Assembly: GCF_027579695.1 (NCBI RefSeq)
Contig: NC_083570.1
Span: 5,921,001 to 5,985,000 of the forward strand
DNA from: Neoarius graeffei
Lineage: Eukaryota > Chordata > Actinopteri > Siluriformes > Ariidae
Length of the DNA: 64,000 bases
Reading direction: 5' to 3'
In this document: piece by piece, positions 8-45,200 of the stretch
Numbering within the stretch: the first letter of the stretch is position 1
Layout of the letters: every line of letters begins with the position of its first letter
The notes under the pieces: model-generated
Told to the model about the DNA's origin: nothing
Database searches by the model: none
What the model saw: only the letters and a program-made list of their open reading frames with translations
Position numbers and translations under genes: made by a program

Positions 8-1464
8 AGGCGTCACGCAGTGGTGATAAAAGTCGCATTATTCTGCACCAGAATGCTTTCGAGATTCGAAATAAATTGACCGTCGATTTTTCAAAAGCTT
101 CCCGCGGTTGTAATCGGTCCTTATTTGGTCATGCCCATCACTTGAAATTTCCCGCGTTCGCAGCGCCCCCTCTCGGTTAATGGAACAGCTGCGTGACGTC
201 ATACCAGTAACCACTCGGTGCAGTTGCAATGACGGACACACCAGAAAATAGGAGCGATGCTGAGGAAATTAGCTTTGATTTTACCGATACAGAAGAAGAA
301 AATGGCCCACAAGTAGAGATTTTGACAGCTGAATGTCCTGGTGGTATCAAGCCTTACAGATTTGAACCTGAGCGTTCATCTTCAGATGAAAATGAGGATA
401 GTTCTAATGACGACAGAAACGAAGACGAGAATGAAGAAGACCGGTGACTTGAAGACTTGTTTTGGTTGGTTTCTCTGACTAAATCACTACTTGTGTGTAT
501 TTTTAAAGACCATTTTCACTTGAATTAGAATGCTGTGTGATTAATCTATGATTATGTGTAATACTGATAGCTGTAGGGGGTGAAAGTATAGCTAGAAAGA
601 TTGAATTCTAGCAGGTTGACAGCTTGCGATCTCGCGAAATGCAGTGGGCCTTCTGATGCAGTAGACCCCTTGATATTCCAGTTTTCATCATTTTCCTTTT
701 ATTGCGGTTGATTTTAACTTGATATTCAGTATGTTATAGGCTGGGAGTATTGAGCCTTGTATTGTATTGTTTAGTAAATGTACAATCATCAGTAATAAGT
801 GATAATTATTAGTTAAAGGCAGCTCTGTGGCATAAATCACTGTAAAATTTGGACACAAGTCCAAATTTGGCCTTTTGGTTTCTATCCTATAGATCTATTT
901 TGCTCTCCCATGATGATCTTAGACCTATTAAAAGCGAAATGGGGTGTTGTAAATAATATTGCAAGATCATGGAGGTTTAATTGGAGTTTTGTGAAAATGT
1001 TTTTAAAAAGCTAGTAAAGGTGGCTTGGGAAGCTGGAAAGCAGACATTATAAACAAACAATTTATTTTTAATGCATGTTTTCCAGGTGCAGTTGTGGAAA
1101 CTGTAGAATTATCACAGAATATTAATACATCATTTCATAGTGTTTTGAGTGTTCAAAACTATCCACAAACTGAATAAATCCACAAAATCCACAATGTAAA
1201 CAACTCTGGTAAACGCGCGCTATAGAGAAAACATGGCGACAGGCCAGCATCACCCAAGGGAGGTTACTGGTATGACATCACACATAAGTTGACCTAGTTA
1301 ACGGCTGGCTGCCTAAATTTGGCTGTGCGCGTCAACTTTAAATGCTTGTAGCGGGCGCATCGTGACACTGAGATCGCGGGAAACCGAGGGGCTTGAATAA
1401 CCCACCAAACCCGACATTTTGACACATGATATAGCCTGATTGCTGAAATTACCGCACGACGCCT
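8..1464. mobile_element. TTAA-flanked DNA transposon, non-autonomous
   Basis: The element lies between two TTAA copies (4-7 and 1465-1468). Its ends are imperfect inverted repeats: AGGCGTCACGC on the left and the complement of AGGCGTCGTGC on the right. A second inverted repeat of 20 bases with one mismatch lies inside (193-212 against 1262-1281). The unoccupied site (gagccTTAAacactg) is visible twice in duplicated DNA of this same window, near 37078 and 52370, which proves a clean insertion. TTAA targeting is known for piggyBac and Kolobok; AGG...CCT termini fit Kolobok better than the CCC ends usual for piggyBac. No transposase is present. The only reading frame of note is the acidic one at 229-447. 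Confidence 0.85.
229..447 (+). CDS. Small acidic ORF inside the TTAA element
   Basis: A 72-residue frame starts at an ATG about 220 bases inside the left end of the transposon. It is strongly acidic and low in complexity (runs of Glu, Asp, Asn, Ser) around one conserved-looking core, GIKPYRFEPE. From memory, a PYxFEP motif opens transposon-borne fish proteins annotated as P2X7-like or YqaJ-linked, but this is recall and not tested. It may be the first exon of a lost accessory or transposase gene. No splice donor was pinned down, and it may not be translated today. Confidence 0.35.
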   Translation: MTDTPENRSDAEEISFDFTDTEEENGPQVEILTAECPGGIKPYRFEPERSSSDENEDSSNDDRNEDENEEDR

Positions 1465-1629
1465 TTAAACACTGCGTTCCATGAGGCTGGCAGGGGGAGT
1501 CGGCTCTCTTCTGTGGGATCTTTAACTAGTTTTAGAATGCTAGTTTAAGCTGATATGTGATTGATCTAACGGTAAAACAGCACGAGGGCTCGAGAACTTT
1601 GACAGGTTACAATTTTACTTGGCAACAGA

Positions 1630-1702
1630 ATGTATCTGAATTCTGATTGGCTGTTGTATCTGAATTCTGATTGGTTGTTGTATCTGAATTCTGATTGGTT
1701 GT
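1630..1702 (+). repeat. 24-bp tandem repeat, three copies
   Basis: A 24-base unit containing TGAATTCTGATTGG repeats three times here and only twice in the duplicated partner (about 52536-52586). It lies in the intron just upstream of the B30.2 exon. Each unit carries CTGATTGG, the complement of a CCAAT box, which may be coincidental. Confidence 0.85.
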
Positions 1703-1877
1703 TGTTGTATTATTGCCCTTTTGTTGTGTTCTTGAGCCCAGAGTGGGGGGAGGGGGGAGTGACAGGGTTCTACAGAGAAAAGTTTTCACTGCAACCGAAC
1801 TGCTGTTTTCGTGACCACGCCCCCAGCGCGGATATTCATGTTCACATTGTTCAGTTTGTTTTTCTCTTTTACTTTAG

Positions 1878-2401
1878 ATTTCTGTTATCTGAATCTGGAT
1901 CCCAACACGGCACATCGTCTCCTCATTCTGTCTGAGAAGAACAGAGCGGTGAGAGGCAGTGGGAGAGAGCAGCGTTACTCTGATCATCCAGAGAGATTTG
2001 ATTTCTGGTGGCAGGTGTTGTGTAAGGAGAGAGTGTGTGGACGCTGTTACTGGGAGGTGGAGTGGAGCGGTGATGGTGTTGTGTTCATATCAGTCTCATA
2101 TAAAGACATCAGCAGGAAAGGACGGGGTGATGAGTGTCGTTTTGGAGGCAACAATCAGTCCTGGAGTCTGTGGTGTTCTTCTTCTCTCTCTTTCTGGCAC
2201 AACAGTATTAAGACTGATCTCAGAGTTCCATCACCCTCCAGAATAGGAGTGTATGTGGATCACAGTGCAGGAACTCTGTCCTTCTACAGCGTCTCTGACA
2301 CGATGAAGCTCCTCCACAGAGTCCACACCACATTCACTCAGACTCTATACGCTGGGTTTGGGGTTCCTGGTTCTACAGTGAGATTGTGTGATCCAGAATA
2401 A
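1878..2401 (+). CDS. finTRIM gene A, last exon (PRY-SPRY/B30.2)
   Basis: This is the C-terminal B30.2 exon of a TRIM E3 ubiquitin-ligase gene of the fish finTRIM type. The acceptor TTTAG ends at 1877 and the frame then runs 174 codons to a TAA. Family landmarks are present: [14 protein letters not shown] (PRY start), [25 protein letters not shown] and LYAGF near the end. In this family the B30.2 domain recognises ligands such as viral proteins or host partners. The exon starts with two bases completing a codon, matching the phase of gene B exon 5. RING, B-box and coiled-coil exons must lie beyond the left edge. The stop codon sits inside AATAAAA, a polyadenylation-like hexamer, as in gene B. 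No stop or frameshift is seen. Confidence 0.85.
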
Positions 2402-2960
2402 AAGTGTGTAGTGTTTTCTGTAAAATTCCTGCACGTTGCCACCTTGTTGCTCAGTCGTCTGTTTCACTAGAACACAATCCAGCTGCACAAAAACACTCAT
2501 TTTAATATTTAAATTAAAACAGATGAATATTTAAAATAATTAAAAAGGAAATGTTAAAAATTAACTGTCAGACAAGAAACTCGTCAAATTTAAAAAGAAA
2601 ATGATCTCATGACCTTCGCATTATAAAGTTCTGTTTGTTTCATATTAAGCAGCGTCTCATTAAATAACTAATAAACAGTAATAAAGCCAGAACAGAACAA
2701 CATTTTAAACCTGTTCAGGTCACACTATATAAAAATAAAACATCACTTTTGGAATGAATTTGATTTTTCTGCTTGTGTTCTAAGATGTAAAATCCACATT
2801 CACTTTTTCAAATCTGAAGTTGTTTCTAAACCCTGAGATTTGATTGTAAAACATTGAACAATATTTAAACTCCATTAGAACATCCAGTACATGATCGGTT
2901 CAGGCTGCCGATGTCGTGTTCATCCCATATTCAGCCTGGATGATGATTGGCCCGCAGATA
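2402..2960. other. Downstream flank of finTRIM A
   Basis: AT-rich DNA without a credible reading frame. It is conserved with 53295-53851, so it belongs to the duplicated block and probably holds the 3' end of the transcript. Confidence 0.6.
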
Positions 2961-5180
2961 GAACCTTATAAATCCAGGTTTGTCTGTGAGTTTGGGATTT
3001 TTATTCAAATATTACAATCAAAGCTTTGCAGGATAAAAGATAAGAGCACAGGAGAATAAAGTTTCCCCCAGTGATGGAGTTTCTGTGCTGAACTCATTTT
3101 CCGACAGAAGCAAATTCAACCTTTTCCTGAGAGTTTCAGCAGCTGGATAAATATTGTTCAGTATATTAAACTGAATTTCTTTCACTGTGGGTGAAATTGG
3201 CCGTCTAAGATAACTACAGTGTGTATTTGTTAGCGTACCTCCATCGTCAGTTATTCTTACTTTTATTTTTTTTTTTTTATATCAGGGAATAGCTTCCATT
3301 TTAAAATATTCCTAATTCCTTTGTTATTATATTTTCTTTCACCGATTTTCAATTCAGGCAGTTTGACCGACACCTTTGAATATTCAAGGGTATTTTTTAT
3401 CGTGAATCTTAAGGGAGGTGGAATAGATCTACAAATTTGATTAAATTCTCTATAGACACATTTTAAATGAAACTTTTCTACAAATGAATTAAATTGCATC
3501 AAATGTCCATTTTCATCCATTAGATCAGTAATATCTAAAACTTTATCATTCCATTCTTGTTGAAATAAAGTCTTCCTTTTAATAGTAATGGTTCTATTAT
3601 TCCACAAGGTTAAGTACGCTTGCATTTGTGGACATTAAATAAATAATTTTGGTGAAATTGGGCAGCCTTGTCTGATTCCACATAAAATCTTAAATTGAAT
3701 AATTGATTGGTAATCAGTCATATCCAGAATCAGTCAGACGTGGTTTTGAATATATCTTCCCTTCATGAAGGCTGATTGATATTCGTCTACAAGTTTTACA
3801 AGTCCACGCTTTAGACGATTAGCAGATACTAAGGCAAGTAATTTATAATCATTGCATAGTAAGGTTATAGGTCTCCAATTGTCTAGCAACAAGAAGTCTT
3901 TTTTGGATTTTGGCAGCAAGGTTATTAAGCCTGTCTTCATCGTTGGGAATAAACATCCTTTGTCAGTGCATTCTAAAAATGCTCTATATAATATAGATTT
4001 TTTAAATATCCACCCAAAAGTATTTTAAAAATTCAGATGTTAAGCCATCGATTCCTGGGGATTTACCATTATTTATTTGTTTTAATGCAATTTCAATTTA
4101 TGTTATAGTTCATTCCTCACCAAGTGTATGTTTGTCTTCATCCAGCTTTTTGATGTCATCATTAATGGGATAAAATAAGACGTCACATTCTGATTTATTA
4201 AATTTATGGTCCAATAAAAGAGCCAAATTCCATCCTGTACTCATTTCTGATCTTCTATTATATTATCATTGGTCATAAGCTTACTCATTTTTTTCTTAGG
4301 TTGTCTTTGATTTTCAAGTCTGAAGAAATACGATGAACTTTTTTCACCCTGTTCGATCCATCCAGCTCTTGATCGAGTGGAAACTCCATTTGCCTTTATT
4401 GTGTACATTTCATCTAGTAGAGACTGCAGTGACTAATTCTGAAATGTTTTTGAAGGATAGTTGTGTGTTTTTTACTAATGTATTAATTTTATCAATCAGA
4501 TCCTTTTGTTCTTGTCTCCTTATACATGAAAGTTTTTTACCCATGCCAATTGCTATTTGTTTGACCTTAAACTTAAACCATTCCCATTTACTCCTATCAG
4601 ACATGTCTAACTCTTCAACCTCCAAAATAAGAGACTTCACCTGATCACAAAATTCACCGTTCTGTAATAAGTCGTGATTAAATTTCCAGATATTAGGAAG
4701 GATCTTATGTTGCTTAGACGTGAATAGGATTAGACTAATTGTACAATGGTCTGTGAGCGGAGAGGCTGAAATTTCACAATCTAAAATATCATTATACAGC
4801 TCACAAGAGATAAGCCAGTAATCTAGTCTCGAACACTGACCGTTTCCTGCAGCATTAAACCATGTATATTGAATACAAGTTGGGTTTGACGACCTTCAAA
4901 AATCAATTACATTCATTGTTGTTCATAAATTCAGTATAATGCGGCTGTAAACAGGTTGTGGATTCCTGTGAGGTATTCGATCTCACCATGAATCAGGGGC
5001 GATGTTAAAGTCTCCGCACATTATCACTTTTTCTGAAGTATGTGATGTTTTCCATTCGTTAACAAGTTTACTTCATTCCTCTGTTATGATTTTGGGTACA
5101 AATAAGGTTCATTTGGTTGTGCTTAGAACTGTGATATTGGTGAATTGCTCCTCGAGGGAACAAAAGAGTTAACCTGTTGT
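2961..5180 (-). mobile_element. L1-like (Tx1/L1 type) LINE fragment
   Basis: Minus-strand non-LTR retrotransposon. Reading from high to low coordinates one sees an endonuclease trace around 5045-4990 (MCGDFN then PDSW), an inter-domain helical region at 4640-4410, reverse-transcriptase blocks at 3940-3734 (LLDNWRPITLLCNDYK, then YQSAFMKGRYI) and the L1 C-terminal region at 3625-3263 (LWNNRTITI ... IPPPLRF). Many frames are interrupted and the 5' end is missing, so it is dead. The 3' tail (from about 2962) recurs alone at 29868-30018 and again in the duplicate at 53852. Confidence 0.85.
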
Positions 5181-5560
5181 AATAATAGGATTAAATAGGT
5201 GCAGTTCAATAACCACTAAACGTTAAAGATAATCGTTTACAAACCGGTCTAAAACATAGAAATCAGATTAAAATTCAAAAGGAGAGAGAGCGAGAACTTT
5301 ATAAATTCATCCATCTTAGGTAGATTATCTAACTGAATTATACTTCATTTCAGTGAGACAACTTTGTGTGAGAAGAGTGAGTTGGTACTCTCTATTGCCT
5401 GCAGGAATTTGAGACGGTATGTTTTCATTTCTGTATGTTCTGTTTTATATTCAGTAAAGTGCTGGCATTTCCATTTGCAATCCCTGGTTTCTGGTCTAAC
5501 TCTCACTTGTCTACCCCACTCTAATAGAACCTAGAACTGGTCCAGTAGCTTCTCGAGTAT
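5181..5560. other. No gene seen
   Basis: About 380 bases between the L1 remnant and a tandem repeat. No coding, RNA or transposon end could be supported. Confidence 0.5.
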
Positions 5561-5569
5561 CAGGGAATT

Positions 5570-6430
5570 GATAGCGGTGCTACACAGGCACTTACGGATG
5601 TATGTACAGGGGAGAGTGGGAGAAGCAAACTGGGAACAAAGCCAAATCACAGGATGAGAATTGTAGTGAAAATACAGGCAAGGGTCGGTCGATCGGCAAA
5701 CAGAGCAATGTAGGCAGGACGAGACAACAAGGTAGAGACAACGAGAACAGGGGTGGAAATAACTAGAAAGCAGGCAGAAGGTAAACGGCTCGGTACGACA
5801 GGAGTGAACACTGAACAATACTTTGCAACTCAGGAGAGTGTGAGAGAGGCTTAAATAACTGGGCTGATGACTCAAACGAGAGACATGTGTAATTAATAAG
5901 CAGGTGATAGAGGGCACTGTGGTTCTTGGGAGTTGTAGTTTTGAGAAGCCATGTTTGTAGTCTGTTTTGAGCTGTCGCTCCCAACGCCATTACTGACAGC
6001 AGGCACTTACGAATGCAAGTGCAGGTGAGAACGGGGGTGTTGCAAACTGAAGGCTGAGGCAAATACGAAGAGCAAGAATCATAGTCAGGAACAGGCAGAG
6101 GTCAGTCGAATGACAAACTGAGCAACATAGGGAAAACAGTAAGACAAAGTCGAGACTAAACACAAACACTGGTCAATACAGGAAATCAGGCAGAAATCAA
6201 ACGGCTCGGTAAAGCTGGGCACAGAACACTAAACAATACTTCACACTGGCAGTCTGTGAGAGCTGAGTGTATATAGGCGAGGTGATTACTGATGAATGGG
6301 AGACAGGTGATGTAATTATAAGTCGGGTGATAGAAGGCACTGTGACTCTTGGGGACTGTAGTCCGGATTGGCCATGTTTGGAGGCTGCTCTGAAATCATG
6401 TTTTCAGTGCCGTTACTGACACTCCTCTGC
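5570..6430. repeat. Diverged two-copy tandem repeat, unit about 425 bp
   Basis: Two units (about 5578-6000 and 6001-6430) share the same order of landmarks: ggcacttacg, a purine-rich stretch with ggcaaacagagcaa or its variant, aacggctcggta, aacaatactt, then ggtgatag-ggcactgtg and ccatgttt, ending at gccattactgacag or gccgttactgacac. They are clearly homologous but much diverged. There is no coding signal. It resembles a dispersed fish repeat; I cannot assign a class. Confidence 0.75.
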
Positions 6431-7090
6431 GACCCATTCCCGACAGTCAGTTAATTTGCGTAATCTTTTCATCAAATACTATTTTCATTATTATTTGCTT
6501 TATTTTGAAAGGACATTTGTGTTTTATAGTTGCTTACCCCTAGCTGTCTGTCTCTTTGTAAATATGTTCTCTGCCACGCCCGTTACAGTCAGGTGTTGGT
6601 TGAAATGTTCACAAACTCGTCTGACCAGATTACAATCCTGAATGATGACAAATAGTCTTGAGCATGACACAAAACATGTAATAAATTCTAACAAATTCCT
6701 TTTGAGGAAGACAAATATTGAAATACAAGTTTAAATCCGATCATGAACTGAAGCAGCGAAGTTGACAATCCCAAATCAGAAATTGTTTGGACAGTATGTA
6801 GAAGTTGAAATCAAAACTGAAAACAATGAGTTGTAAATAATCATTGACCTGTATCACACTCAGAACAAAACAAGAGCACACTATTTAATATTTTACTTCA
6901 TGAATTTTGTTTTGTTTTTTATAAACAGGTATTTCGCTTTTGATGCTTCCAACATGTTTCAGAAGAAGTTGGCACAGTAAAGAATTTACCATTTTATAAG
7001 GTTTCCGTTCCTTCTCACAACACTTAAAAGATGTTTCAGGATTGAAGACACCAAGTGATGAAGAATCAACTGATTTCAACTTTCATAAAA
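6431..7090. other. No gene seen
   Basis: AT-rich DNA with scattered short frames and no recognisable motif, splice pair or repeat terminus. Confidence 0.5.
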
Positions 7091-7091
7091 T

Positions 7092-7200
7092 CTCATGAAA
7101 TTAATCCTAATCAGTGCAGCTACATGGGTTATATTTCTGCACTGAAGGGAGATGAAATGGTTAATAGAGGAGTGTTCATGATCTCGTTGTGTTTGTGTTC

Positions 7201-7234
<34 letters not shown>

Positions 7235-7300
7235 GCTCCTTCAAACACAGAACCAGTTCATGTTTCCAGTGTGTCTGGACTCGTTTAAGTGACAATGATG
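7092..7300 (+). pseudogene. finTRIM 5' fragment with RING start, dead
   Basis: From 7092 the sequence matches the leader of gene B (32667 onward), including the CT tract, up to ACACAGAACCAG. It then jumps directly to the RING start: QFMFPVCLDSFK followed by a stop. Gene B reads [13 protein letters not shown] at this place. The missing 135 bases (32812-32946 in gene B) lie between two ACCAG words, so a microhomology deletion removed the start codon. The first zinc-binding Cys is also changed to Phe. This is the relic of a third finTRIM copy lying between genes A and B. Confidence 0.8.
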
Positions 7301-7440
7301 TAGACATTTTCTTAAAACTGTGTGTTTTATTGTATGCTGATACTATAGTACGAGCAGAATCTGCAGAAGAACTGCAATTTGCGCAAAACGCAGTACATAG
7401 GTATTGTCAGGAATGGGCTTTAACTGAAATGTTACAAAAA
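7285..7440 (+). mobile_element. LINE reverse-transcriptase scrap
   Basis: A short plus-strand piece reads CVLLYADTIVRAESAEELQ followed by a helix ending in CQEWAL. This is the catalytic palm of a non-LTR reverse transcriptase; the usual YADD has lost one Asp. It abuts the dead RING fragment, suggesting insertion there. Clade cannot be assigned from so little sequence. Confidence 0.65.
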
Positions 7441-7464
7441 CAAAGATGGTCATTTTTTCATGAG

Positions 7465-8160
7465 GTAAAGTACGTAACTGTCCCTGTACTCCTGTAGAGT
7501 TCGTACAGCATTCTGCAATAATGCAGACACTTTGAGGAGATCAATGGTCTTCTCCTGCAGTAACTTTGAGATGGCATTAGTGCACTCCAAAATCTTTGTC
7601 TGAAGGCTGATTAAAAATATGAACTGAAATTTAGTAATGGCCTGTTTAAGTGCATCTGCCTCATCTCGTTCATTCGTTTTCTCGCCTGCAAGTGAGAGCT
7701 TTAATGACGTCTCCATATCTGTACTTTAACGCAACAAGCGCATCGTAGTGGGAGGACCAGCGGGTTGGGCAGAGGCGTTTCAAGGTTATGTTCCTGCTCT
7801 CTGGGCTCAATAAGTCACCAAGTAATGCCCATCTCTTAACACTGTTGGCAACCACATCATGAAACTGTCTAATCACTGGGATAGTTGTGACAGAATCATT
7901 CAGTACCAAATTCAGACAATGAGCCGCACAGTGCACGTACAAAGCAAGGGGCTCCCGCTCCGCTATTCTCTCTTGAACACCAGAATAAATTCCGCTCATG
8001 TTCGCTGTGCCGTCATAACCCTGTCCACGGCATCTGGAGAGATCTAAGCCATTCCCTTCAATGCAGCTAATAATTTGGCCCTCCAGTTCAGAAGCGGATG
8101 CGTTCACAGTTATCTCGAATCCAAGAAAAGCCTCAACTATCCTGATTTCATAGGGTTTTT
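7465..8160 (-). pseudogene. hAT transposase fragment (ZMYM1-like type)
   Basis: Minus-strand remnant of a hAT transposase of the kind often annotated as zinc finger MYM-type 1-like. Landmarks in order: FLGFEITVNAS, CRGQGYDGTANMSG, HCAAHCLNLVLND, and CPTRWSSHYDAL (RW motif of the hAT core). A frameshift near 7690 separates this from a downstream helical part (7716-7450). The N-terminal zinc fingers and the C-terminal dimerisation region are missing. Catalytic function is lost. Confidence 0.8.
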
Positions 8161-9307
8161 TATTTTATTTTTTTGAACCATGATAAGAATGTGTAGCAAA
8201 AATGAGAGTTATATAGGTCAACTAGTCTGTAATCATGTGAAAACTTGTAGGTTTCAAGGAATTTCCAATGAAATCACGTAAGGCACATTTATCCAGTCCC
8301 CCCAGGATTTCGCGGGCCTTTTTTGTGATTGTTGCAGGCTAAAATGTCTGATGTTGCAGGGGGGTTTTCCAAAAAATTGCGATGAAAGTTGCGGTGTTTT
8401 TTAGGTTTTTGTTGCGATTACATTGTGGGAGGAAGTGAAAGTTGCGAGAAATTGTTGCGATTTTCTCTTTTTGTGATTAAAATTGAGTGATATGTTAAAT
8501 ATTAAGTTATTACTGAAAAACTATTGATTAAAAAAACAAAGACACTGAGAAATGGTCCTGTAAACAACTTTACCAATATAAAAGATGACCAGGACTACAT
8601 AAATGCAGAAAAATAGGCTTTACTTATCCAAATGCACCTGTTGGTTCAAAAGTTAAAGTGCATAGAACCTCACAGCACAACATGAAGTTACCTTAAAATA
8701 TAATATAAATGCCTCAGCTTTCATGCAAGAAAAAAAAAAACTATTAATACTAGTACTGTGTGCAGGCAGCAGGGTTCCCACACCTTAGTTAACATCAAAT
8801 TCAAGGACCACACGCGGCGGCATTTACCTACTGCTACTGCTGGATATGTTATCAGTAAATGACCATAACACTTGTAGCTCCAGCCTAGCATAGGTCATTG
8901 AATCAGATTGCACTACTTGATTTGGACACATGGAGGGACTATATTCAGATGTGGCAGCACATTTCTGTGATTACTAAACCGGAATGAGAATATAGTTCCA
9001 TGTCATATCAGCCTAGAAAATAGCCACGTTTCCTTCTCTCCTCTTTCTATTGGTCTTAGTACACTTTGCAACTACAGAAGAGTTAAGTTTTAATGAGGAA
9101 AAATATCATAATTCTTAGTCACTTTTGAGCAAGATGCTGATAGGCGAGATGCTAATGGTCTAATCTGATTCCATGACTTATGCTAGGCTGGAGTTAAAAC
9201 TTCTACAGTCAGACTCAGAGAACAGGTGGATGAACTGGAGAAAGCTCAACTGTCAATTGTTTAACTTGAGGGGAGGTGGAAAATTAGTATATTTCCCCAA
9301 ATGGTGG
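8161..9307. other. Transposon-end debris, no gene
   Basis: Contains a start-like end CAGTCCCCCCAGGATTT (about 8299) followed by G/T-rich DNA with repeated TTGCGA words, and another hAT-like terminus CAGGGTTCCCACACC (about 8768). No partner ends were found, so neither element is delimited. No reading frame is credible. Confidence 0.45.
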
Positions 9308-9391
9308 CTGTATCCCAGGGGTGCAGATACGTTTTTTGAACTGGGGGGGGACAAAGCTGCCAGCAAACCAACCCCAACCCCACCCCCAACA

Positions 9392-9931
9392 TAGCCTGGG
9401 AAATCCCATGCTGCTTTGCACAATCGTTCCGATCTGAAAAGACAGCATCGAAACTATGGTCTAAAGGCTCGCCTGAGTTAGGGAGCCAATCAGAGAGTGG
9501 GGAGGGGTGGAAAGACGGTGATGCGTACTACTCGACAAACGGTAGTTTATTTGGGACTGTTTACGGATCACATTTAACATGGCGGTGAGCGATACGAACC
9601 AAACTTTCGATCAAGCTTTAGACACTGTTCTGAATAGTTTGGAGCGAAAGTTGGTTTTAAAAAAAGAACAGCGTTTGGCGTTACAGTCTATTTTTGTTTT
9701 GCCTTCTCTTTCTCTTTCCTTCTCTTCTTCACCTCTTCGTCGCTCTAACTACGTCACTGGGTACAACTGCCATGATTGGCCATGGGCTACGTATACGCCA
9801 AATGATAGACATTCGCAATGTCCAATAAATGGCCGTTGACAATTGTAAACCACACCTCCCCTACGAGAAATTCAATAGGCGGATTCCAGACCATATTTCA
9901 CTTGTGATATGGTCTGGTGTTAACCAGACTA
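9392..9931 (+). mobile_element. TAGCCTGG element with terminal hairpin, copy 1
   Basis: Ends TAGCCTGG and CCAGACTA form an 8-bp inverted repeat with one mismatch. They are flanked by a perfect 9-bp TSD CCCCCAACA (9383-9391 and 9932-9940). Just inside the right end is a hairpin with an 11-bp stem (CCAGACCATAT at 9886-9896 paired to 9907-9917) and a 10-base loop, followed by TGTTAA and the terminal CCAGACTA. A RecQ-like reading frame begins 187 bases from the left end. Copy 2 (38573-43607) has the same layout. The 9-bp TSD suggests a Mutator-like or other superfamily; I could not name it. Confidence 0.8.
9579..9695 (+). pseudogene. RecQ-like helicase N-terminus, truncated
   Basis: The frame opens with MAVSDTNQTFDQALDTVL and continues to KKEQRLALQSIF before losing similarity at a pyrimidine tract. 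It aligns residue for residue in pattern with the longer frame at 43398-43151 ([13 protein letters not shown] ... [13 protein letters not shown]), which continues into a helicase motif I. Here motif I is gone, so only the region before the first helicase motif survives. The start codon is chosen because both copies share it. It is carried by the TAGCCTGG transposon and is not a host gene. Confidence 0.6.
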
Positions 9932-10138
9932 CCCCCAACATGTGTTGTGCGAGGAATATACTCTGATGCCCTTAAAACTGCCTTCTGAGCACTGTATCTA
10001 CAGGCTACCATCGAAAGAAGGAGGCTACCAGAAAGGCATCTCTACTCCGTACGATTTTACTTTCACTATGACATTACTTTGAACAGACTATCAAAAAATT
10101 GCAAGGTGATATGCTAAAGTAAGGCACAGTTTACTTAC

Positions 10139-23341: not shown

Positions 23342-25904
23342 GTACCCTCTGACTTGCTGTCTGTGGTCTTTTTCAGAAGCTGTTTGATGATGTGCACTCC
23401 CTTTTCAGCTTTGCCATTTGCCTGCGCATGCTGAGGACTGGATGTGACCTGATGGAAACCATACTGATTTGCAAACTGTTGCCACTCTTTGCAGTTGTAA
23501 CAAGGACCATTGTCACTAACTACAGTCTTTGGTATCCCGTTCCAGGCAAATATGGACTTGACATGAGTAATGACACTGCTGGCAGTTGCACTTGAGAGCA
23601 GAGCAATTTCAGGGAAGTTTGAATAGTAATCAATCACTAGCAAATAGTCCTTTCCATTATAATGAAACAAATCCATTCCAACTTTCTCCCATGGTGTAGT
23701 GGGAGGATCTGGAATCATCATAGGCTCCCTAACCATTCTCCCAAAATCACTGTTTGTAACTCCTAATCTTTGACTAATTCTTCATCTATTTGTTTTGCTT
23801 TGACATCAGACACCGGCAGAAACTCAACTATCATGTTGACGTGATTTTCAATCTCTTTTTCAGTGGAGCTCACTTGACTCATCTCTGATGCTCGTGATAG
23901 CGCATCTGCTAACACTAAGTGCTTGCCTGGTGTGTATATTAACTCAAAGTCATACCTTTGTAGTTTCATGATGAGTCGCTGAATCCTTGGCGACATCTCA
24001 TTGAGATTCTTCTTGATGATTGACACAAGAGGACGATGATCTGTTTCGACTGTGAATGTGGGAAGCCCATATATGTAGCAGTGAAATATTTCTAGTCCAT
24101 AAGCTAGTCCAAGGCATTCCTTCTCTATATGAGCGTATTTAGTTTCAGTCTTAGTCATTGATCTCGAAGCATAAGCAACTGGCTTCCAGCTAGCTCCTTC
24201 TGCCTGCAGCAAGGCAGCTCCAAGCCCGTCCTTCGAAGCATCTGTTGAAATCTTCAGTCTCTTAGTGGGATCATAATACACAAGCACATGTGCATTGGTC
24301 AATGTGGTCTTTAGAGCATTCCATTCTCGCTCATTTCTCGCTGTCCACTTGAACTCTTTCGAATCATGGAGTAGTTCCCTCAGTGCTGATGTTCTCACAG
24401 ATACCGTAGGTTGGGTATGAACTTGCCAATAAAATTTATCATTCCCATCACTCTGAGCACCCCTTTCTTGTCTGTGGGGCGTGGCATGCTTAGGATGGCT
24501 TTTATTTTTCTTTCATCTGGCTCTATCCCTCAGCATACAACTTGTCTCCAAGGAATGTTATTTCTTATACACCAAACTGACATTTTGCACAGTTTAGCTC
24601 AAGTCCATTCTCACATACCCTTTGAAGCACTTTTGTCAGTCTTTCGTTATGCTCCTGTAGGGTGGAGCCCCAGATTACCACATCATTCACATAGTAACGG
24701 ACCCCTTCTTAGCCCTCTAGCATGTTATCCATCGCACGATGATAAATTTCCGATGCTGAGATTATGCAAATGGCATTCTGAGAAATCGGTACCTACCAAA
24801 AGGTGTATTGAATGTGCAGTATTTCGGGCTCTCATTGTCCAGCTTGATTTGCCAGAATCCCTGTGCCGCATCTAGCTTGGAGAAGTATTTGGCGCCTGCC
24901 ATCTCACTTGCAATTTCCTCATGTTTTGGTATCTGGTGGTGCTCACGTTTTATGTTTTTGTTCAAATCACCTGGGTCCATGCATATTCTCAGTTCATTGT
25001 TTTTGTTCTTTTTGTCCACACACACCATTGAGTTTACCCACTCTGTTGGTTCTTCCACTTTAGTAATGAGTTTTAACTGACACATCCTGTCCAGTTCCTT
25101 TTTAAGGCGCTCCCTGAGTGGAGCTGGAACTCTCCTAGGTGCATGGATCACTGGTTTTGCATCCTCTTTCAATTCAATTTTGTATGTGTATGGAAGGCAT
25201 CCCAGTCCTTTGAAAACATCATGAAAACGCTGCACAATGGAGTCAACTGTGCCTGTGTGCAGAGGTGGGTAGTAACGCGCTACATTTACTCCATTGCATT
25301 TACTTGAGTAACTTTTTGGATGAATTGTACTTGTAAGAGTAGCTTTAATGCAGCATACTTTTTACTTTTACTTGAGTATATTTGTGAAGAAGAAGCGGTA
25401 CTTTTACTCCGTTACATTGGGCTATATTCTGCTCATTACTCGCTACTTTATTTTTATTGATCCGTGCGATGCGTGGTCTGTTTGTTTATGCTTTGTCGAG
25501 ACTTCCAGCAGAGGCTCTGTCACATGACCGCATCTCACCGATCACATGTAGCAGCCAGAGCCATAGTGGGAGGAGCTACCCCGTTTCGCCAATCAAACAG
25601 AGCCAAGCCGCCGTGCGCGTCTTGCACACAAAACTCCCGCGGCAAGAGCAGTCCAGGGCCCTGTACTATGAAGCGGGTTTTCTGGCTTACCAGGGTAACT
25701 TTGAGAGTAACTTGATCACGTGCAGCGTAACTTCCCGATTAACCCATACTACGAAAGTTGGCTATGTTCAAACCGAGGTATGCTGCCATGGCAACTTACG
25801 CTGCATCTCAAACCTGCTCGTCTCAGGTTATGTTCTTGATTAACCACACCCTTTTTAAACACCACCTCTCCACCGACATTTCCTCTAGAGACAATGCCAG
25901 CGTA

Positions 25905-31680: not shown

Positions 31681-32667
31681 TATTATGGTGCAAGGAATTG
31701 ATCCAGAAGGTGGCAGCAATGCAACAATAAGGACACTGACTGCCGTTCAACACAAGAAAGAAGAAGTTGTTACTGTGAACCCTTCCAGTGTATTCGTAAA
31801 TCTCCTCAGTTGTGAGCCGTGTTTATTCTGGATAGATCTCCTGTTGATGATCTCACCTCGTCTTTTCCCTTTGATTTTAATGATATTTCTAGTGGATGGG
31901 GTTTGAACCCTGCACTGACTGGGATTAGGTAAAGTCTTGTGTTAACACTACGAGCAGATTTCTTTCTTCTGCCTTTCAGGAGATTCATTTCAGTCTGTTA
32001 ACAATGTTAAAATGACCCATAGGTAAAATGACCCATGTCAGTGTGGGTTTCCTCCTGGTTCTCCAGTGTTTTCCTACTTCTCAAAGACACATCTAATGAC
32101 CGATTGAGGCGACTCAGGATCTCTGATCTCAAACATATTCATCTACCAACTTCATTTCCATCTCAACAACCTGTACATGAGAGAGAATTCTTCATCGACC
32201 CAGAATAATGTTCCTGATAAAACATGATGTAAGGAATAAAACAGGATGAGGCATGCTGCTCTAGGAAACTAATCTGCGATGAGGTGGTGGGATGTGACCC
32301 AACACAAAGTGGATTAGTTTCCATTAACAACAGGTCATGAAGAGTTCAGGCTCTTGTGAAGGCTGGAGCGCTCATACTGAGTGAAATGGAGATTATGTTG
32401 AAAAAAAGATCCACTTTTGTGATTTCTATTCGCAATAAACAATGCAAAATCAATAAAATACGGTTTCCTTCCTGACAGCTGCGTCCTCCTCACTTTTAAA
32501 ATGGCTCCAACATTCTTTAGGGATGAAGATCAGTTTAAAGATGTCATGAGGAAAAAGCTGTTCAAGTGAAACAATTGTAATTTATCAACAAGGCTGAAAG
32601 TTGTGCTTGAGGTGTCAGTAGGTGGAAAAGTCCTGAAAATTAAGATCCATTCTGTGAGTATTTCATG
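31681..32667. other. Intergenic, no gene seen
   Basis: A LINE-tail-like stretch (GAAGAAG repeats near 31760) and otherwise unique-looking AT-rich DNA upstream of finTRIM B. Confidence 0.4.
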
Positions 32668-32906
32668 AAATTAATCCTAATCAGTGCAGCTACATGGGTT
32701 ATATTGCTGCACTGAAGGGAGATGAAATGGTTAATAGAGGAGTGTTCATGATCTCTCTGTGTTTGTGCTCCTCCTCTCTCTCTCTCTCTCTCTCTCTCTT
32801 TCACACACAGAACCAGGAAGTAACTTGTCATTTCAGAGAAAACAAAACTGATCTCTCTCTCTCTGTCTCTCTCTCTCTATCTCTCTCTCGTTGTGAGTTC
32901 AGGAAA
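32668..32906 (+). promoter_or_regulatory. Leader/5' flank of finTRIM B
   Basis: Conserved with the dead copy at 7092-7255, including CTACATGGGTTATATT, a CT tract and TTCACACACAG. Conservation across copies suggests promoter or 5' UTR with a possible intron end (ACACACAG). Two (TC)n tracts lie at 32772-32800 and 32850-32889. Confidence 0.45.
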
Positions 32907-36237: not shown

Positions 36238-39200
36238 CTAGGCCTGTCACGATCGATATCAAATTTTGTTGGATGATATATTGTCTCAGAAATTGTGATA
36301 AACGATATTATTATTGACGTCTTTTCAAGACAATGTTATGCCACGAGTAAAATAATAATGATCATGCAAATACACCCTTTCATAGAACAGTAAACTTTTT
36401 AATTAAGTCAACTTATTCAATTCAACAGTGGAACGTAAAAAAATAAATATAAATAAATAAGCTCAAGAAATAATACAATCAATCAAAACCACTCAACAAA
36501 ACAATAAATAAAATACAATTCATGGCTCTTAAAAATTGCACTGAAGTGAATATTAACTTGGCACAGGGGAATAAACAGACATTCTTTTCTTCACAGGCAA
36601 CATTCTGCCAATCCAGTTTCTCAAAGATTAGTACCCAGATCAACAAAAAGTGCAAAGTAACAACGTATTGCCAGCTGTCATTTGGATAAAAGTCACAACA
36701 ATTAGAACGAGATAACATGTAGGCAAGGGCGTAGGTTTGGTATTAACATTGGTGGGGACAAAAACCCAATGCCAACCCCCAGTGGTGCCAACTTCAGGTC
36801 AACATTAGAGGGTCACAATATTTTGCTCCGTTGTGTTCCACCAAAAGAGTCTCCATCATCTCTCCAAAGGCCAGACTTTTTACATTTGAAGTTCAGAACT
36901 GTAGTAATTCATGAATAATAATAATAATATGAAATCCATTTGATTAACTGCAAATCTTGCATGTGATGATTAATTCATTCTACCAATTTGCAAATGTGTT
37001 TTCCAAGCAAATAGCGCACTGACTGTCGGGAGGGTGTATGTTCCTTTCCCTCATAAATGGAAATAAAACCCATCCAGAGCCTTAAACACTGCGTTCCATG
37101 AGGCTGGCAGGGGGAGTCGCTCTCTTCTGTGGGATCTTTAACTAGTTTTAGAATGCTAGTTTAAGCTGATATGTGATTGATCTAATGGTAAAACAGCACG
37201 AGGGCTCGCGAACTTTGACAGTTTACAATTTTACTTCAGGGTTGCCAGATACTGCTGACGTTTTCCAGCCCAAAATGCACTTAAAACAGCCCAAAATGTA
37301 AAATGTACTTGATGCCTATCTTGGAAAGTAAAAATATGCAGCTAGAGTCCAGTATAGACCCTTTTCACAAATATAAGCAAATTTCTCATTAGCAGTTATC
37401 AGTGTTGGAAATGAGAATGTAAAAATATTAAGAAATAAACAGGCAGTTACACATACATAACTCACATACATAAGGCCAAATATAACATCTCTGTAACATC
37501 TCTCCTAGACAAGCATAAGCCTTATCATATACTGTATTTCTGTGTAATTTAGGGGGGAGCTAATGTAAAAATCTTCAAAGCAGTTTGATATCAAAGTCCA
37601 GTATGTAGTATTTTGTGGTATTTAGTCCATATAGGGGACCTGAAAGAAATGGAATATAATATTCATACGCTGTTTTTCTTAGCATATAACTGCATGAAAA
37701 TAAGCATCATCACCTTGCCTTGACGAGCGTCTCTGGAATGAGAATGAGAAGTATCAGTGAATTTATAGAGTATGTATATAAGTACATGGAACTTAACATA
37801 AATGTTGATTCATTCCAACTTGGATGTATTGCTAGGTATTCATGAAGTGAATAAATATCCATTAATCAAGCAGTTACATTTTGGCTGGTAAAACAAGGTG
37901 TGAAATAGGTCCTCTAAAGCTCATAAGGGTGGGATAGGCAGGGGACATACACACAAAAGCTTCCAGTGTTGTTTTAATGTCCAGTAAAATGTACATTTAA
38001 TTAATTTATATTTAATAATCCAGGTAATCCATTAGTGGTCAGATAGTCCACTAGTGGACCGACTGACAGGGTTGCCAGATACTGCTGACGTTTTCCAGCC
38101 CAAAAAATGTTCAAAACCCGCCAACATGCACTTAAAACCGCCCAAAATGTAAAATGTACTTGATGCCTATCTTGTAAAGTAAAAATATGCAGCTAAAGTC
38201 CAGTATACTATTTGTAAATTGAACAAATAGCACCATGAGCCCGTCAGTGCTGGAGGTGAAGAATCTGCTGTCTGGTACTCGGCTCCATGTGGTTCAATCA
38301 GATTATAACTCTGCAATCATCTGCTGTGTTCTGAATCCTACATGCACCAGTAGGTGGCGCACATGCAGAATATTATGTAGGCTATGTTAGGCTACGATGC
38401 ATATCTAACATCTGCATTGCTGAGGTTATTTATTTTTTATTTATTTATCTTTTTTGTTTTATTAATTTTATAGGCCTAGTTATTCTGCTTAATTTATTTT
38501 TGTCTACATCCATGTATTTTCTTCATCTGTTATCCTGATTTTTTGTGGATTTGTTAGATTGTACCTGTTTTATAGCCTGGCAAGCCAGACTAAATGTGAA
38601 TATTTAGTCTGGCCTCGATCCGTAGACATTTCCAATGGGGGTGGAAGGAACAAACCGCTGTCTTTCAAACTGTCTCTGTGCGTATAGATAGTTTTCACTG
38701 ACGTCACGGCATTCCGGGGAACGCCTCCCAGCCGCCATCTTGGGGGGCAAACAAAACAGACCATCGCCACTACTGGCTACGTTATCTCGGATGAATTTAT
38801 GAAGTTATATAGTCAGTTTTCTAAAATAAAGATCAATGTCGGCAAAATCAAGCAAACAGAAGTATATAGATACACATTTCACGACAACGGTATGCAGCCA
38901 AACTGGCCTTGATTGGGGGAATTGACCCCTACGAAGTGGACAAAGATGCATTTTCAAGTGACTATGCAGGGCTGCCAAAGCCTGAAACTGCCAAAGCCTG
39001 CTCCAAAGCCTGAAACTGACTTCATCAAACTTTAAAGGACCCATGGCATGGTGGTTTGTTGATGCTTTAAACGGGCTCGTGGAGGCTTCCGGATGTTATA
39101 TCCGCAGCCTTTCTCGAAATGAACCCTCGGCAGGTAGATATAGCCTCCTGGGAGAAAGCCCCATTTCAGCCCTTTCCCAGTGCATCGTTTTGCTAATGAG

Positions 39201-42200
39201 AAGCATGGAGGCGGGCCATGGGGGGAGGGGGCGGGGCTTGACCAAGCTGCGGGCATCTGGCTAACTGCAGGAAGCGGTTAGCTTCACAGCTAATGTAGCC
39301 ATTGCTAGGCTAACGCACCGATTTTAAAACATGGCAAAACGACTTAACAGTTATACACTTACTTGTTCGGTGTTTGTGGCTGATGCGGCAGGGATGCAGC
39401 GCAATTTCCGTATTTCGCTCACATAGGTGGTGTAAAGTTATCCTACCTCTTCGATTTGTCCTACCAAGCCTACTGTGCACGCGCAAAGCCTCCTGCGCAT
39501 GCGCAAAGCCTACTGTGCACGCGCGAAGCCTACGCGCGAAGCCTCCTGCGCATGCACAGAACACATGTCATTACAATTAGCAAGTTCTCATACAGACCGT
39601 TTTATTATACAAAACAAGTCATTACAAATTATTTGACTCGGCCAAAGACTCGACCAATACGCACAAAACATAAAAATCGGCACATGCGTGAAATACTCAC
39701 CGATTTTCTATCAGCCCAGCTGATCAGTAGGACAAAACTACTGTTGAATTTTCCTACCCTCCTGGATTTCGCGCATGCGCAGTAGGCTTGGTAGGATGGG
39801 CAATCCATACAGTGGGTGGGAATCCAGAGGGGGGGCATGGGGATCATCTCCCTTGCTGATGTAGTAAAGGGAAGAGCCTATCAACGCACCATTTTGACGT
39901 GCCATTCTCAAATGTTGGGCATAGTTTGGTTTACACATTATGAAATTTCTAGCCACTGGGGTGACTTAAGAAGGTCAGAGGAACTCATTTTAACGTTAAA
40001 AAACCTCAGAAAGTGAAAATTTCATGCCATGGGACCTTTAAAGGCTGTCTGATATATACAACTTTATATATTCACAGCGCGCCTTTTGGCGGATGCCGCC
40101 TGAATCGCGCAGAACAACAAAAAAAAAAAACAGTTTAAATCGGGAAGCTGTGCACATTTGCGCAGTCCTGCACACCGCTCAGGCTGCATAAATTCTTCTT
40201 CTTCTTCTGATTAATGGCGTGTCACAATATTTAATTGTATATCGCCACCTACTGTATAGGAGTGTGTGAGTTGGTCAGGTCAAGTCTTCGACATGATAGG
40301 GGAGAAAAAAAAATTTATATATAAGGGAATTAGGAAAGTGTAAGGAACTAAATTCTTCCCATTAGTCTAGTGTCTATCAGATACGTCATAAGGGCTTTAA
40401 TACTCTTTCCCTGCATTCCCTCCTCTTTCAGAATGTTATGAATGTCTCCTTCTTTACCTTCTTGTTCTAACCATTTTTCCCTATGATCGTTATATTTCTT
40501 ACAGCAGAAAAGAATGTGTTCTACGTCTTCCATAACTTGACATTCAGCACAAAGTCCATTAGTTTTCCCCAGGCTGCACAAATGTGCGCAGCTTCCCGAT
40601 TTAAACTGTTTTTTTCTCATCCTTATACTTCCTGTTTCATGGACTGTAATGGATTTGCTTATTTAGTAATTTTAATACAGAATTTACTTTGAAATTATAA
40701 TCAGACACTCCAACGCCCCCCTAAAAAAAAAGATCGGATCTGCGCGATTCAGGCGGCATCCGCCAAAAGGCACGCTGTTCGCATCCCAAACACAAATCAA
40801 ATCATACAGAATAGACCTAAAATGTTTTTAAAAAATGACCCTTGCCACGGGCGCAGATAGAGGGGGGGACGGGGGGGATTCGTCCCACCCAGATTTAAAT
40901 TCACCTCGTTCGGTCCCCCCCATTTATAGGGAGGAAAAAACGTCTATGCTGTCTTTCTTTGCATAAGGCAAACCTCACGGAAAAATCAAAAGACTGATTA
41001 CCATTCGGTTTATTGAGGTGCACAGCAGTACAGACATAGTTGCAACTGCGCAGACTGCACAGGTTGCGAGCTCGAGCTTGGTTGCTATGGTTACCCACAA
41101 CAAGTTTGACAGGCATATCGGGGACAGCTCCTCCTAGTTCAGGACCCCAACACGGCATGATGAAGGGTGCCAAAAGGCAGAAAACGATTGCGTCGTTTTT
41201 TTCAAAAAAAAAAAACGACTGTAAGTAAACTGTGCCTTACTTTATCATATCACCTTGCAATTTTTTGATAGTCTGTTCAAAGTAATGTCGTAGTGAAAGT
41301 AAAATCGTACGGAGTAGAGATGCCTTTCTGGTAGCCTCCTCCTTTCGGTGGTAGCCTGTAGATACAGTGCTCAGAAGGCAGTTTTAATGTTTAATCTGGC
41401 GTTCCCTGCCATAATTTCAGCGAGCATATTGTTTCATAAGGAAACTTTGCGAAGAGTTGTTGACTGACTGCCGCTCACGCAACACACAGGCATAGTTAGA
41501 AATCAGGATGCACTGGTTTACACTTTACACACACACGCGTAGCCCAGCCTCTCGCTATGGTTAACAGTTGGAACTTAGCGGTTTTAAAACTAGTTTTGCA
41601 GTTTTGCAATTTCTGTGCATGATGATAATGTGCAAACTTTGGATTTCCATAGGCTATGTTAAAATGTTATGTCACACTTTTATTTACCACCATAAGTTGT
41701 AAAATGAATAGAAAATATAGTCAAGACATTTTTCTGGCCATTTTGAGCATTTAATCGACCCCACAAATGTGATGCTCCAGAAACTCAATCTGCTCAAAGG
41801 AAGGTCAGTTTTATAGCTTCTCTAAAGAGCTCAACTGTTTTCAGCTGTGCTAACATGATTGTACAAGGGTTTTCTAATCATCCATTAGCCTTCTGAGGCA
41901 ATGAGCAAACACATTGTACCATTAGAACACTGGAGTGATAGTTGCTGGAAATGGGCCTCTATACACCTATGGAGATATTGCACCAGAAACCAGACATTTG
42001 CAGCTAGAATAGTCATTTACCACATTAGCAATGTATAGAGTGGATTTCTGATTAGTTTAAAGTGATCTTCATTGAAAAGAACAGTGCTTTTCTTTCAAAA
42101 ATAAGGACATTTCAAAGTGACCCAAAACTTTTGAACGGTAGTGTGTGTGTATATATATATATACACACACACACACGCACACATACATATATACACAAAA

Positions 42201-45200
42201 TGGAATCATTTGCTGACAGCTCAGTCCCCCCCAGTTCAAAAATCCTATCTGCGCCCCTGACCCTTGCGTGAGTGAAGTGACAAGTTTCAAATAGAAACGT
42301 GACAAACGAGCGATATTAAGTGTACATTACAATGTAAACGTACACTCAGCGGTTCCAGTTAGGCATTCTCCAGAGATTGTTCACATGATGTTTTGGTTTC
42401 CAAAAACAAACTTAAACACAATTGATTGTTTATTTAAACAACTTACCACTTATAAAATGATCGGAGCAGACTTTGCTGTGTTTGGAAGGCTGATAATCCT
42501 TGCAGTTGATTCTCGCAAGACATAGATTTCTCCTTTGTATGCTGAGTTTGTTTGCTGCCTTAGTGCTCCCGTACAGTGGGAATTCCATAAAAGCTCCGCT
42601 TGACTTCATCATCTGACCTATTACGACAGCCGTTACAACAGGTGTGCACCATTGCTAGCTTTAAATAGTAGTAATGTAACTATAAATATAAATAATATAT
42701 AAATGAATGTAACTCGTGCGCTACAATGTGTGCTCAGTGACCCATATGATAAGCTGGCCCTCCAAGTTGGCCACCACCAGGGAATCCCCGACTCTGTGAC
42801 GTCATGTGAAAACTATCTATAGGCCAACGCTCTGACCAATCAGTGCAACAGTGACTGTGATGTAGTCAGAGCGACAGAAAACAGTGGGGGAGGCCTTGAA
42901 ATAAATAATTTTTCAAAATGCGTATTAATTAATAAACAGGTTCTAGATATTAAGAAGTTTGGAGATAAGGACCACAAGTTTGGAGTCTGTACCACATACT
43001 TAACATACACTTATTTTTATTCAAGTGTTTTTCAAGGGTTTGCTTAAACTGTTTTTGAGAGTTTTTATTTTTATTTAGTGGTGTTTGGTGAAATAATTTC
43101 CCTTAAATTTAAAATAACGGGAAAATAAGAAACAATCAAAAAGTAATGTTTCAAAGCTGTTTATTAATTCTTTTTACTGCACAAACTAGCCCCATCCTTT
43201 TGGCTACGAGCGGAGCCAGCTGGTAGATCAGACTTTTGCCATAGCCGGTCGGCAAAACAGCGAAAACGTCCTTCTTGAAAAGGAATGAGCGGAGAGCCTC
43301 TTCCTGCTCATGTTTCAACGAAAACTCCAAGTCTAATTCTTCTAAAACTGATTCCAAAGCGGAGTCAAACGTGCGCTGTTCACTAGCCGTAGCCATCTTT
43401 CCTGTTGTGCTTTCTCCAGCGTTGCGCAGCTTTGTCGTCACTCCTGCAAAAGCCCACCCAAAGAATCCAAACAAAAACCTTGCGTTGTGATTGGCGGGCA
43501 CGATTTGATGCCCGGGGTGTTTTTGTTTATATGGTGCGAGGCTAGACCCACTCGCTAGGCAAAAATATTTTTGGCCGCTAGGCGGGTGGGTCTAGTTTAC
43601 TAGGCTACCTGTTCTATTTCATTTCTCCTGACTGCCAGAGGCGGTGCTTTAAGCACCCGGATGTCCATCATCATGCGCATGCAGTTCGAGTATGTATACC
43701 AACAAAGTCGCTTGCGACAGGGGTGACGTATGTCACTGCACCGGTACTTAAGGTGCGTTCACCCCGGAAGTGTTCTCTTGCATCTTCTCGTGCAGAGCAG
43801 ATTTCGAGTTATATTATTTTTCTAAAGAGCAATCGCTGGAGTCTTGCAAACCCTTAAACGGGTTGGAGCTGCATTTTTTTCGCCCTCTTAAAGACTGCGA
43901 TTTGCCATTTGGTTAAGGTAAGAAACCATTTATGAGTAAGTTTGCTCTGACTTCGGCAGCTAGCAACTTCTAATTATAAATTTCAGTTTTACCATGATCA
44001 TAAGGGTGTTTTCTCGCCTTGTAGCGATCTAATAAGTATCGTTTTATTGCAAATATGCCACTTATTTGGTGCTTGTGTGCGCTTCTGACTCGCACTGTAG
44101 CTTGTTTACTTCAGCTGATTGCTGAGTGAGTTCGCTCTGACTTCGGCAGCTAGTAACTTCTATTTATAAGTTTCAGTTTCACTGCGATCATAGGGGTGTT
44201 TTCTCGCCTTGTAGCGATCTAATAAGTATCGTTTTTCTGAAAGTATGACACTTATTTGGTGCTTGTGTACGCTCCTGATTCGCACTGTAGCTTGTTTACT
44301 TCAGCTGATAGCTGAGTGAGTTCGCTCTGACTTTGGCAGATAGCAACTTCTAATTATAAGTTTCAGTTTCACTGCGATCATAGGGGTGTTTTCTCGCCTT
44401 GTAGTGATCTAATAAGTATCGTTTTATTGCAAATATGACACTTAATTGGTGTTTGTGTGCGCTTCTGACTCGCACTGTAGCTTGTTTACTTCAGCTGATT
44501 GCTGATTACCGAAACGTGGCTGGGTGAGTGTGTTCGCTCCTGACTCCACCGCGGATATTTCATTTTGTTTGCTTGGCTCTGTATTGGTACTTCGACACTG
44601 CTTGTGCCATCACCTATTCCATATTTAGGTAAGTAGAATAAACAGCGGTCATGTTTATGTGCTGATTGTCTCAAAGCTTTAAGGTAAGTAAATTATTTTC
44701 AACTAAACCGGTTATGAGTGAGTTCGCTCGGACTTCGGCAGCCAGCAACTTCTAATTATAAATTTCAGTTTCATCGCGAGCATATGGATATTTTCTCGCC
44801 TTGTAGCGATCTAATAAGTATCCTTTGGTTGCAAGTGTGATACTTATTTGGTATTTTTGGGCGCTTTTGATTCGCGCTGTAGCCTGTTTATTCAGCTTTG
44901 ATTGCTGATTACCTGAACGTGGTTGGGTGAGTATGTTCGCTCCTGACTCCGCCGCGGATATTTTGTTTTGTTTGCTTGATGCACTGCTAGGCTTGCTCAG
45001 CTGGAAAGCAGTTTGGGCTCTCGACTGCCCCCAGCACCGAGCGACTATGCTCGGCCTCCTAAGTCTAGGAAGCGCCCTAAGCAGCCGTCACAGGAGGCTC
45101 CCTGTAGGCCCAAGTACCAGAAGGTGGACCCCTTGGCGCAACAAGTGGGCACCTTGGCTTCTTTTGTATTGTATTGATTTATTTCGCAATAAAACCATAC

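Follow-up and report, generated by a model that had tools for sequence, protein, structure and literature searches.

The question raised by this locus is to which class of transposable element two short insertions belong, which lie within a stretch of 64,000 nucleotides of the genome of the fish Neoarius graeffei (NC_083570.1, positions 5,921,001 to 5,985,000; referred to as the window). The first-pass annotation described both as members of one transposon family, here called copy 1 and copy 2, with TAGCCTRG-type termini, perfect 9-bp target site duplications (TSDs), a hairpin inside one end and, inside the other end, a reading frame that reaches a RecQ motif in copy 2, and it knew of no standard superfamily combining these traits. 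The class of element is already described, and the families found here are new and abundant members of it. Copies 1 and 2 are very probably internally deleted, non-autonomous members of two related AcademH-type families, whose longer relatives carry a RecQ-like helicase gene and a convergent DUF6589 gene, and for which mobilisation in trans is predicted.

Copy 1 represents family C (Table 1). Its termini are TAGCCTGG and CCAGACTA, and the element at 9392-9931 is exactly as it had been described, with CCCCCAACA on either side matching at nine of nine positions. The flanks of copy 1 were joined with one TSD and compared with the host genome (G000; 2.34 Gb in 38 contigs). The search returned 1,430 first-look candidates, and in 40 of the 40 matches scored the junction was spanned at 93–99% identity with a single CCCCCAACA. 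As the joined-flank matches carry one TSD, the site of copy 1 is empty elsewhere and 9 bp were duplicated on insertion; the empty sites themselves look like parts of a repeat family. The reading frame of copy 1 begins at nt 188 from the helicase end (position 9579) and, taken alone, gave no significant domain match in Pfam and TIGR00614-type profile searches. At another locus, L047, the terminus of copy 1 is followed by a RecQ-like exon, which is 57% identical to the helicase of the long element L034 presented below, and the short frame of copy 1 is therefore the beginning of a gene of this kind in family C. A search of the genome with the peptide of copy 1 yielded at least 150 matches, and the 46-nt right end of the element has 1,412 exact matches there, compared to 0 for a reversed-pattern control. 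Apart from the copy in the window, five copy-1-type loci have TSDs that match at nine of nine (three loci) or eight of nine positions (two loci). Furthermore, in at least two loci where more of the family C exon 1 is retained (C1:83338289 and C2:47448023), the exon is soon followed by the hairpin end, and these loci look like deleted family C copies themselves.

Copy 2 belongs to family A. The claim of perfect TSDs in both copies holds for copy 1, whereas in copy 2 the two sites agree at eight of nine positions (CCTGTTTTA/CCTGTTCTA). Moreover, the 5-kb element that had been proposed at 38573-43607 is ruled out by a nested insertion of 4131 bp (38687-42817). Inverted GATAGTTTTCAC repeats are present at 38687 and 42817 with TATA on both sides, and seven of seven aligned relatives are uninterrupted at the insertion point and contain a single TATA. 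Because of this arrangement of repeats and TATA and because of the uninterrupted relatives, copy 2 is to be regarded as an element of 900 bp split by the insertion, which itself contains several other inverted-repeat elements. The frame of copy 2 begins at nt 212 from the helicase end (43396), which together with nt 188 in copy 1 confirms the placement of both frames about 190–210 bases inside this end. It also reaches the RecQ motif, as had been noticed, and is matched by the RecQ family model TIGR00614 (E=1.2e-9) and by Pfam DEAD (E=5.7e-6). Past about 70 helicase codons L034 diverges from the frame of copy 2, and what follows in copy 2 is probably an internal-deletion junction, judged from the sequence comparison.

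Table 1. Coordinates of the two copies, of their parts and of two longer relatives. Positions are those of the window, except for the two long elements in the last rows.
Feature	Position	Strand	Remark
Copy 1, 540-bp non-autonomous element, family C	9392..9931	+	helicase end left, transposase/hairpin end right; ends and perfect 9-bp TSD
Left TSD of copy 1, CCCCCAACA	9383..9391	.	flank comparison and joined-flank search
Right TSD of copy 1, CCCCCAACA	9932..9940	.	flank comparison
Start of helicase exon 1 in copy 1, about 38 codons	9579..9692	+	ends before ATPase motif; similar N-terminus in L047
Subterminal hairpin of copy 1 (transposase end), 11-bp stem	9886..9917	.	arms CCAGACCATAT/ATATGGTCTGG; stem search and single-strand DNA folding z -3.40
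Copy 2, transposase/hairpin end, first 114 bp of 900-bp element, family A	38573..38686	-	38683-38686 is one TATA copy of the nested insertion's target
Copy 2, rest up to helicase end	42822..43607	-	joined directly to 38573-38686 in seven aligned relatives
TSD of copy 2, CCTGTTTTA	38564..38572	.	flank comparison
TSD of copy 2, CCTGTTCTA, 8 of 9	43608..43616	.	flank comparison
Subterminal hairpin of copy 2, transposase end, 12-bp stem	38584..38613	.	arms GCCAGACTAAAT/ATTTAGTCTGGC around these positions; single-strand DNA folding z -3.77
Second hairpin of copy 2, helicase end, longer, imperfect	43542..43595	.	single-strand DNA folding z -4.17
81-codon open frame of copy 2	43151..43396	-	first about 70 codons are RecQ-like helicase exon 1 including the 12-residue RecQ motif
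Nested insertion, outside the copy 2 element, 4131 bp	38687..42817	.	TIR GATAGTTTTCAC, TSD TATA
L034, copy-2-type element (family A), about 9.6 kb	G000:C1:66384200-66394100, element 185-9787		TSD GGGAAGAGA both sides, 9/9
L035, family B element, 5.4 kb	336-5698		TSD ACATAACCC, 9/9

A genome search with the 70-aa peptide of copy 2 resulted in at least 150 matches, which were ranked by identity and from which 32 copy-2-type loci were fetched (L001-L028 and L030-L033, with L004 being the window's own copy and L009-L028 picked partly for long open frames). L012 and L016 are without one end, and 29 loci were usable for TSDs. The two sites match at nine of nine positions in 21 of these, at eight in seven and at six in one. 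The sampled copies are 91–97% identical to copy 2 over full-length alignments. This identity and the mostly perfect TSDs suggest fairly recent activity, for loci that were chosen by similarity. The low coding variation among 22 aligned copies of family A (3 of 25 were left out because their length was unusual) is not indicative of selection, as the loci came from identity-ranked peptide matches. Exact matches to the 40-nt hairpin end of copy 2 number 2,333 in the host genome, against 0 for the reversed-pattern control. At one of the loci, L005, 33 nt of the hairpin end and a stretch of host sequence lie just outside the full element (positions 972-1030), and three near-copies of the 9-bp site are found there (CTAGAAGAC, CCAGAAGAG and CCAGAAGAC); the extra piece might have been left by a local re-insertion or by gap repair. 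Next to the matches in the host genome, 10 phage and 24 plasmid records match the peptide of copy 2, all with less than 60% identity. Among the 10 plasmid records listed, all but one bear a RecQ or DEAD helicase annotation; that one, like the phage records, has none. One 26-residue match is located in an archaeal MAG, and viral contigs contained neither a relative of the peptide nor an exact element end.

Longer relatives reveal which genes lie between such ends. Searched exon by exon, with introns ignored, the TIGR00614 profile gave 44 matches in the host genome, none above the family cut-off. The profile of DUF6589, an unnamed Pfam family, gave 12 matches, each exceeding the cut-off, and 14 prokaryote control genomes yielded none. 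The six best of the 12 DUF6589 matches are less than 4 kb away from a RecQ match and convergent to it, and the other six have no TIGR00614 match nearby. In L034, which has TAGGCTAG as its octamer on the helicase side and thereby differs from TAGYCTRG at one base, the helicase is encoded by an uninterrupted gene of 588 aa, with exons at 397-872, 1219-1298 and 1837-3047 that were joined manually at GT/AG sites. Its first large exon matches DEAD and its last exon Helicase_C, and both match TIGR00614. On the opposite strand a multi-exon gene runs from the hairpin end, containing one DUF6589 exon above the cut-off (E=5.7e-15) and another one below (E=8.8e-5); its frames are interrupted, with one TGA and two overlapping frames at the start. 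L035 is a single, partly decayed copy of family B, in which helicase exon 1 matches DEAD (E=9.8e-14), the helicase contains a stop, the last DUF6589 exon is matched by the profile (E=2.1e-21) and the front, i.e., most of the DUF6589 gene, is missing. Two further family B loci, L037 and L038, are 95% identical to each other in the last DUF6589 exon; no element ends were located within the stretches fetched for them. Families A and B have a common coding layout and are 53% identical in the last exon of the putative transposase gene. The first-pass annotation had proposed that the parent element carries a RecQ-type helicase, and this is borne out by the uninterrupted 588-aa gene and the related frames in three families. 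It had also advised a search for longer copies with a helicase frame and a transposase, and L034 and L035 are such copies, each having a RecQ-like helicase and the convergent DUF6589 gene, which encodes a putative transposase.

The gene content and the TSD can be compared with elements described before. According to PMC10045372, AcademH elements have TSDs of 9 or 10 bp and AcademX elements TSDs of 3 or 4 bp, related to the helicase or nuclease they encode. DEAD and Helicase_C are the helicase domains tied to AcademH and KolobokH in PMC10799480, and AcademH is reported from animals according to the title of Kojima (2020, Mob DNA 11:15). The combination of a helicase with a 9- or 10-bp TSD, for which no standard superfamily had been seen, thus corresponds to the AcademH description in PMC10045372. 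A helicase gene with DEAD and Helicase_C is present here as well, and the 9-bp TSD, matching at eight or nine positions, is found in 28 of 29 family A loci and in five of five family C loci, and at nine of nine in L034 and L035. AcademH is the best filing by the comparison of helicase and TSD. For teleosts, PMC4746887 gives 987 Academ copies in zebrafish, 791 in medaka and 334 in stickleback, with none in tetraodon; the 2,333 and 1,412 exact ends counted here exceed this range of 334–987, the numbers being measured differently.

An AcademX-like arrangement was also encountered. L039 and L040, fetched as two of the six loci where DUF6589 has no RecQ match nearby, both contain a frame downstream of the DUF6589 frame (with IDGMALV in L040 and EEADT, DTDVL and GCDTTS in L039), which we take to be XPG-like and which would be the AcademX partner. 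These frames gave no Pfam or NCBIfam match and no credible PDB match, the PDB matches looking like chance (the L040 frame was compared with NCBIfam and PDB only). L039 and L040 are possibly AcademX elements of the same genome. An alignment of the two DUF6589 groups with hhalign was modest (E=2.6e-4, probability 42), and the aligned segment ends just past D-L-x-L-E-H. The elements with copies 1 and 2 fall outside of AcademX, since they combine a helicase with a 9-bp TSD, in contrast to the nuclease and the 3–4-bp TSD of the AcademX description (PMC10045372). No mention of DUF6589 was found in the literature searched. By analogy, via the helicase and the TSD and via the XPG-like partner that we presume in the two other loci, DUF6589 most likely is the Academ transposase. 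Several observations count against the AcademH reading: the interrupted DUF6589 frames and the deviating octamer TAGGCTAG of L034, the loss of most of the DUF6589 gene and the stop in the helicase in L035, family C, with which no DUF6589 gene was seen, the modest alignment of the DUF6589 groups and the XPG-like frames without a domain match.

Other assignments have to be weighed against AcademH. Helitrons also encode a helicase. They are not known to create a TSD and have a Rep/HUH protein with a Pif1-type helicase. The clear 9-bp TSDs and the empty site found here differ from this, and a Helitron is rejected. The 9-bp TSDs had been taken as a hint at Mutator, for which the length of the TSD alone speaks. 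However, the second gene is DUF6589, and among 19 frames scanned with Pfam from L034, L035, L037, L039 and L040 (8 + 2 + 9 frames, covering part of the exons) neither MULE nor any other named transposase domain apart from DUF6589 was found; a Mutator-like element is disfavoured and very improbable. The same scan argues against an independent acquisition of a RecQ helicase by some non-Academ superfamily, as in KolobokH of fungi, with the likeness to AcademH being convergence. It is in line with this possibility that RecQ helicases are not confined to one superfamily, KolobokH, according to PMC9587614, having a RecQ helicase beside a DDE transposase and being found only from fungi, and that the identity of DUF6589 as the Academ transposase is putative. 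KolobokH resembles the elements presented here by its RecQ helicase beside a transposase gene, but its transposase is of a different superfamily and Kolobok TSDs are TTAA-specific and 4 bp long (PMC9587614). The TSDs here have 9 bp and are not TTAA-specific, by which Kolobok is rejected, and helicase and 9-bp TSD occur together in the AcademH description (PMC10045372), making an independent acquisition unlikely. Finally, the RecQ frame was considered as a secondary capture that is confined to some members and absent from most. The short copies, which keep the helicase start only, and the sample, which consists of some loci, would fit such a capture. However, in families A, B and C, whose ends are alike in kind, a related gene starts 188–244 nt from the end, and the helicase pieces are 53–59% identical across the three. 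A late capture is rejected by this presence in three families and has hardly any probability left.

The hairpins raise a question of their own. Perfect 11-bp stems with a loop of at most 12 nt give 18 overlapping matches at six places in the whole window, two of which are the element hairpins, and as only six places have them such stems are rare in the window. Both hairpins described earlier are real. That the hairpin marks a single end is not upheld, as copy 2 has a second hairpin at 43542-43595 and thereby one at both ends, copy 1 has one strong hairpin, and in L035 hairpins are weak or absent. At the helicase end of copy 1 the longest perfect stem has 6 bp, compared to a shuffle mean of 5.6, and its first 79 nt have a folding z of -2.93, with 2 of 200 shuffles being as good. 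The end stems of L035, 7 and 5 bp in this one, partly decayed copy, are within the shuffle range. A scan of the window with Rfam at gathering thresholds was negative. At the transposase end, the terminal octamer recurs in the hairpin arms in inverted order (TAGCCTGG, followed by CCAGACTA and then TAGTCTGG). Internal TAGYCTRG octamers with at most one mismatch were counted in the first 75 nt of each end against 1000 shuffles. The transposase end of copy 2 has two, both exact (as many at up to one mismatch in 9 of 1000 shuffles), that of copy 1 has two (18 of 1000), the helicase end of copy 2 has two, which lie away from the outer hairpin arms (10 of 1000), and that of copy 1 has none. In the simplest reading of these sequences, the hairpin would represent paired inverted binding sites for the putative transposase, retained because both half-sites are recognised. 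This is simpler than a processed hairpin because the hairpin is weak or absent in L035; an extrusion of the hairpin from the DNA is possible and is not needed.

Alternatively, the hairpin might be a working DNA structure, with the extruded end being cut or copied via a helicase-driven single-strand route instead of ordinary cut-and-paste. The elements do encode a helicase, the transposase-end hairpin shows two deviations in 28 columns of the 22 aligned copies, and between copies 1 and 2 two of the 11 stem pairs are changed on both sides with none being broken. However, 9-bp TSDs suit double-strand insertion, the helicase-end hairpin is more variable (an average of 0.045 deviations per copy over its first 60 columns in the 22 aligned copies), L035 has end stems within the shuffle range, and the transposase-end arms are inverted terminal octamers, which as binding sites explain the arms without extrusion. 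A working hairpin is therefore improbable, and paired binding sites are the reading followed here.

The ends, the 9-bp TSDs, the empty site, the gene content and the copy numbers of the ends, all directly observed, can be brought together in the following model. In the longer relatives, two convergent genes lie between TAGYCTRG-like ends, a three-exon RecQ-like helicase gene and, opposite, a multi-exon DUF6589 gene. The DUF6589 protein, a presumed DDE transposase, would bind the terminal octamer and the inverted subterminal repeats that form the hairpin, excise the element and join it across a 9-bp stagger, giving rise to the TSD. The helicase might open or remodel the DNA at the ends or act in gap repair, and deleted copies, which retain both ends, would be mobilised in trans. 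In a speculative and rather improbable extension of this model, the inverted subterminal repeats would be working parts of a helicase-assisted route, in which the palindromic end is opened and the transposase acts on the hairpin or single strand, thereby setting the 9-bp stagger by which AcademH differs from AcademX; efficient mobilisation in trans along this route would then have produced the short copies in their thousands.

DUF6589 is hereby tied to helicase-bearing transposons with 9-bp TSDs and, if it is the Academ transposase, as appears most likely, proteins labelled only DUF6589 would become easier to annotate. Moreover, the numbers of ends suggest that an AcademH-type group can seed short copies by the thousand in the genome of a vertebrate, and such short copies could stay unclassified or pass for fragments of RecQ genes.

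The window contains further features. Related frames at 1763-2401 and 52647-53294, about 51 kb apart, are 87.5% identical over 216 aligned positions. The former matches PRY-SPRY and a RING/B-box frame is located at 32658-33545, suggesting TRIM-type genes. A DDE_3 transposase frame at 60633-61232 on the minus strand is presumably of the Tc1/mariner type, and a reverse-transcriptase RNase H frame is present at 23766-24512, also on the minus strand. The segment 58001-60000 has a strong GC skew of 0.41, and several TG/GT dinucleotide arrays lie between 59029 and 59986.
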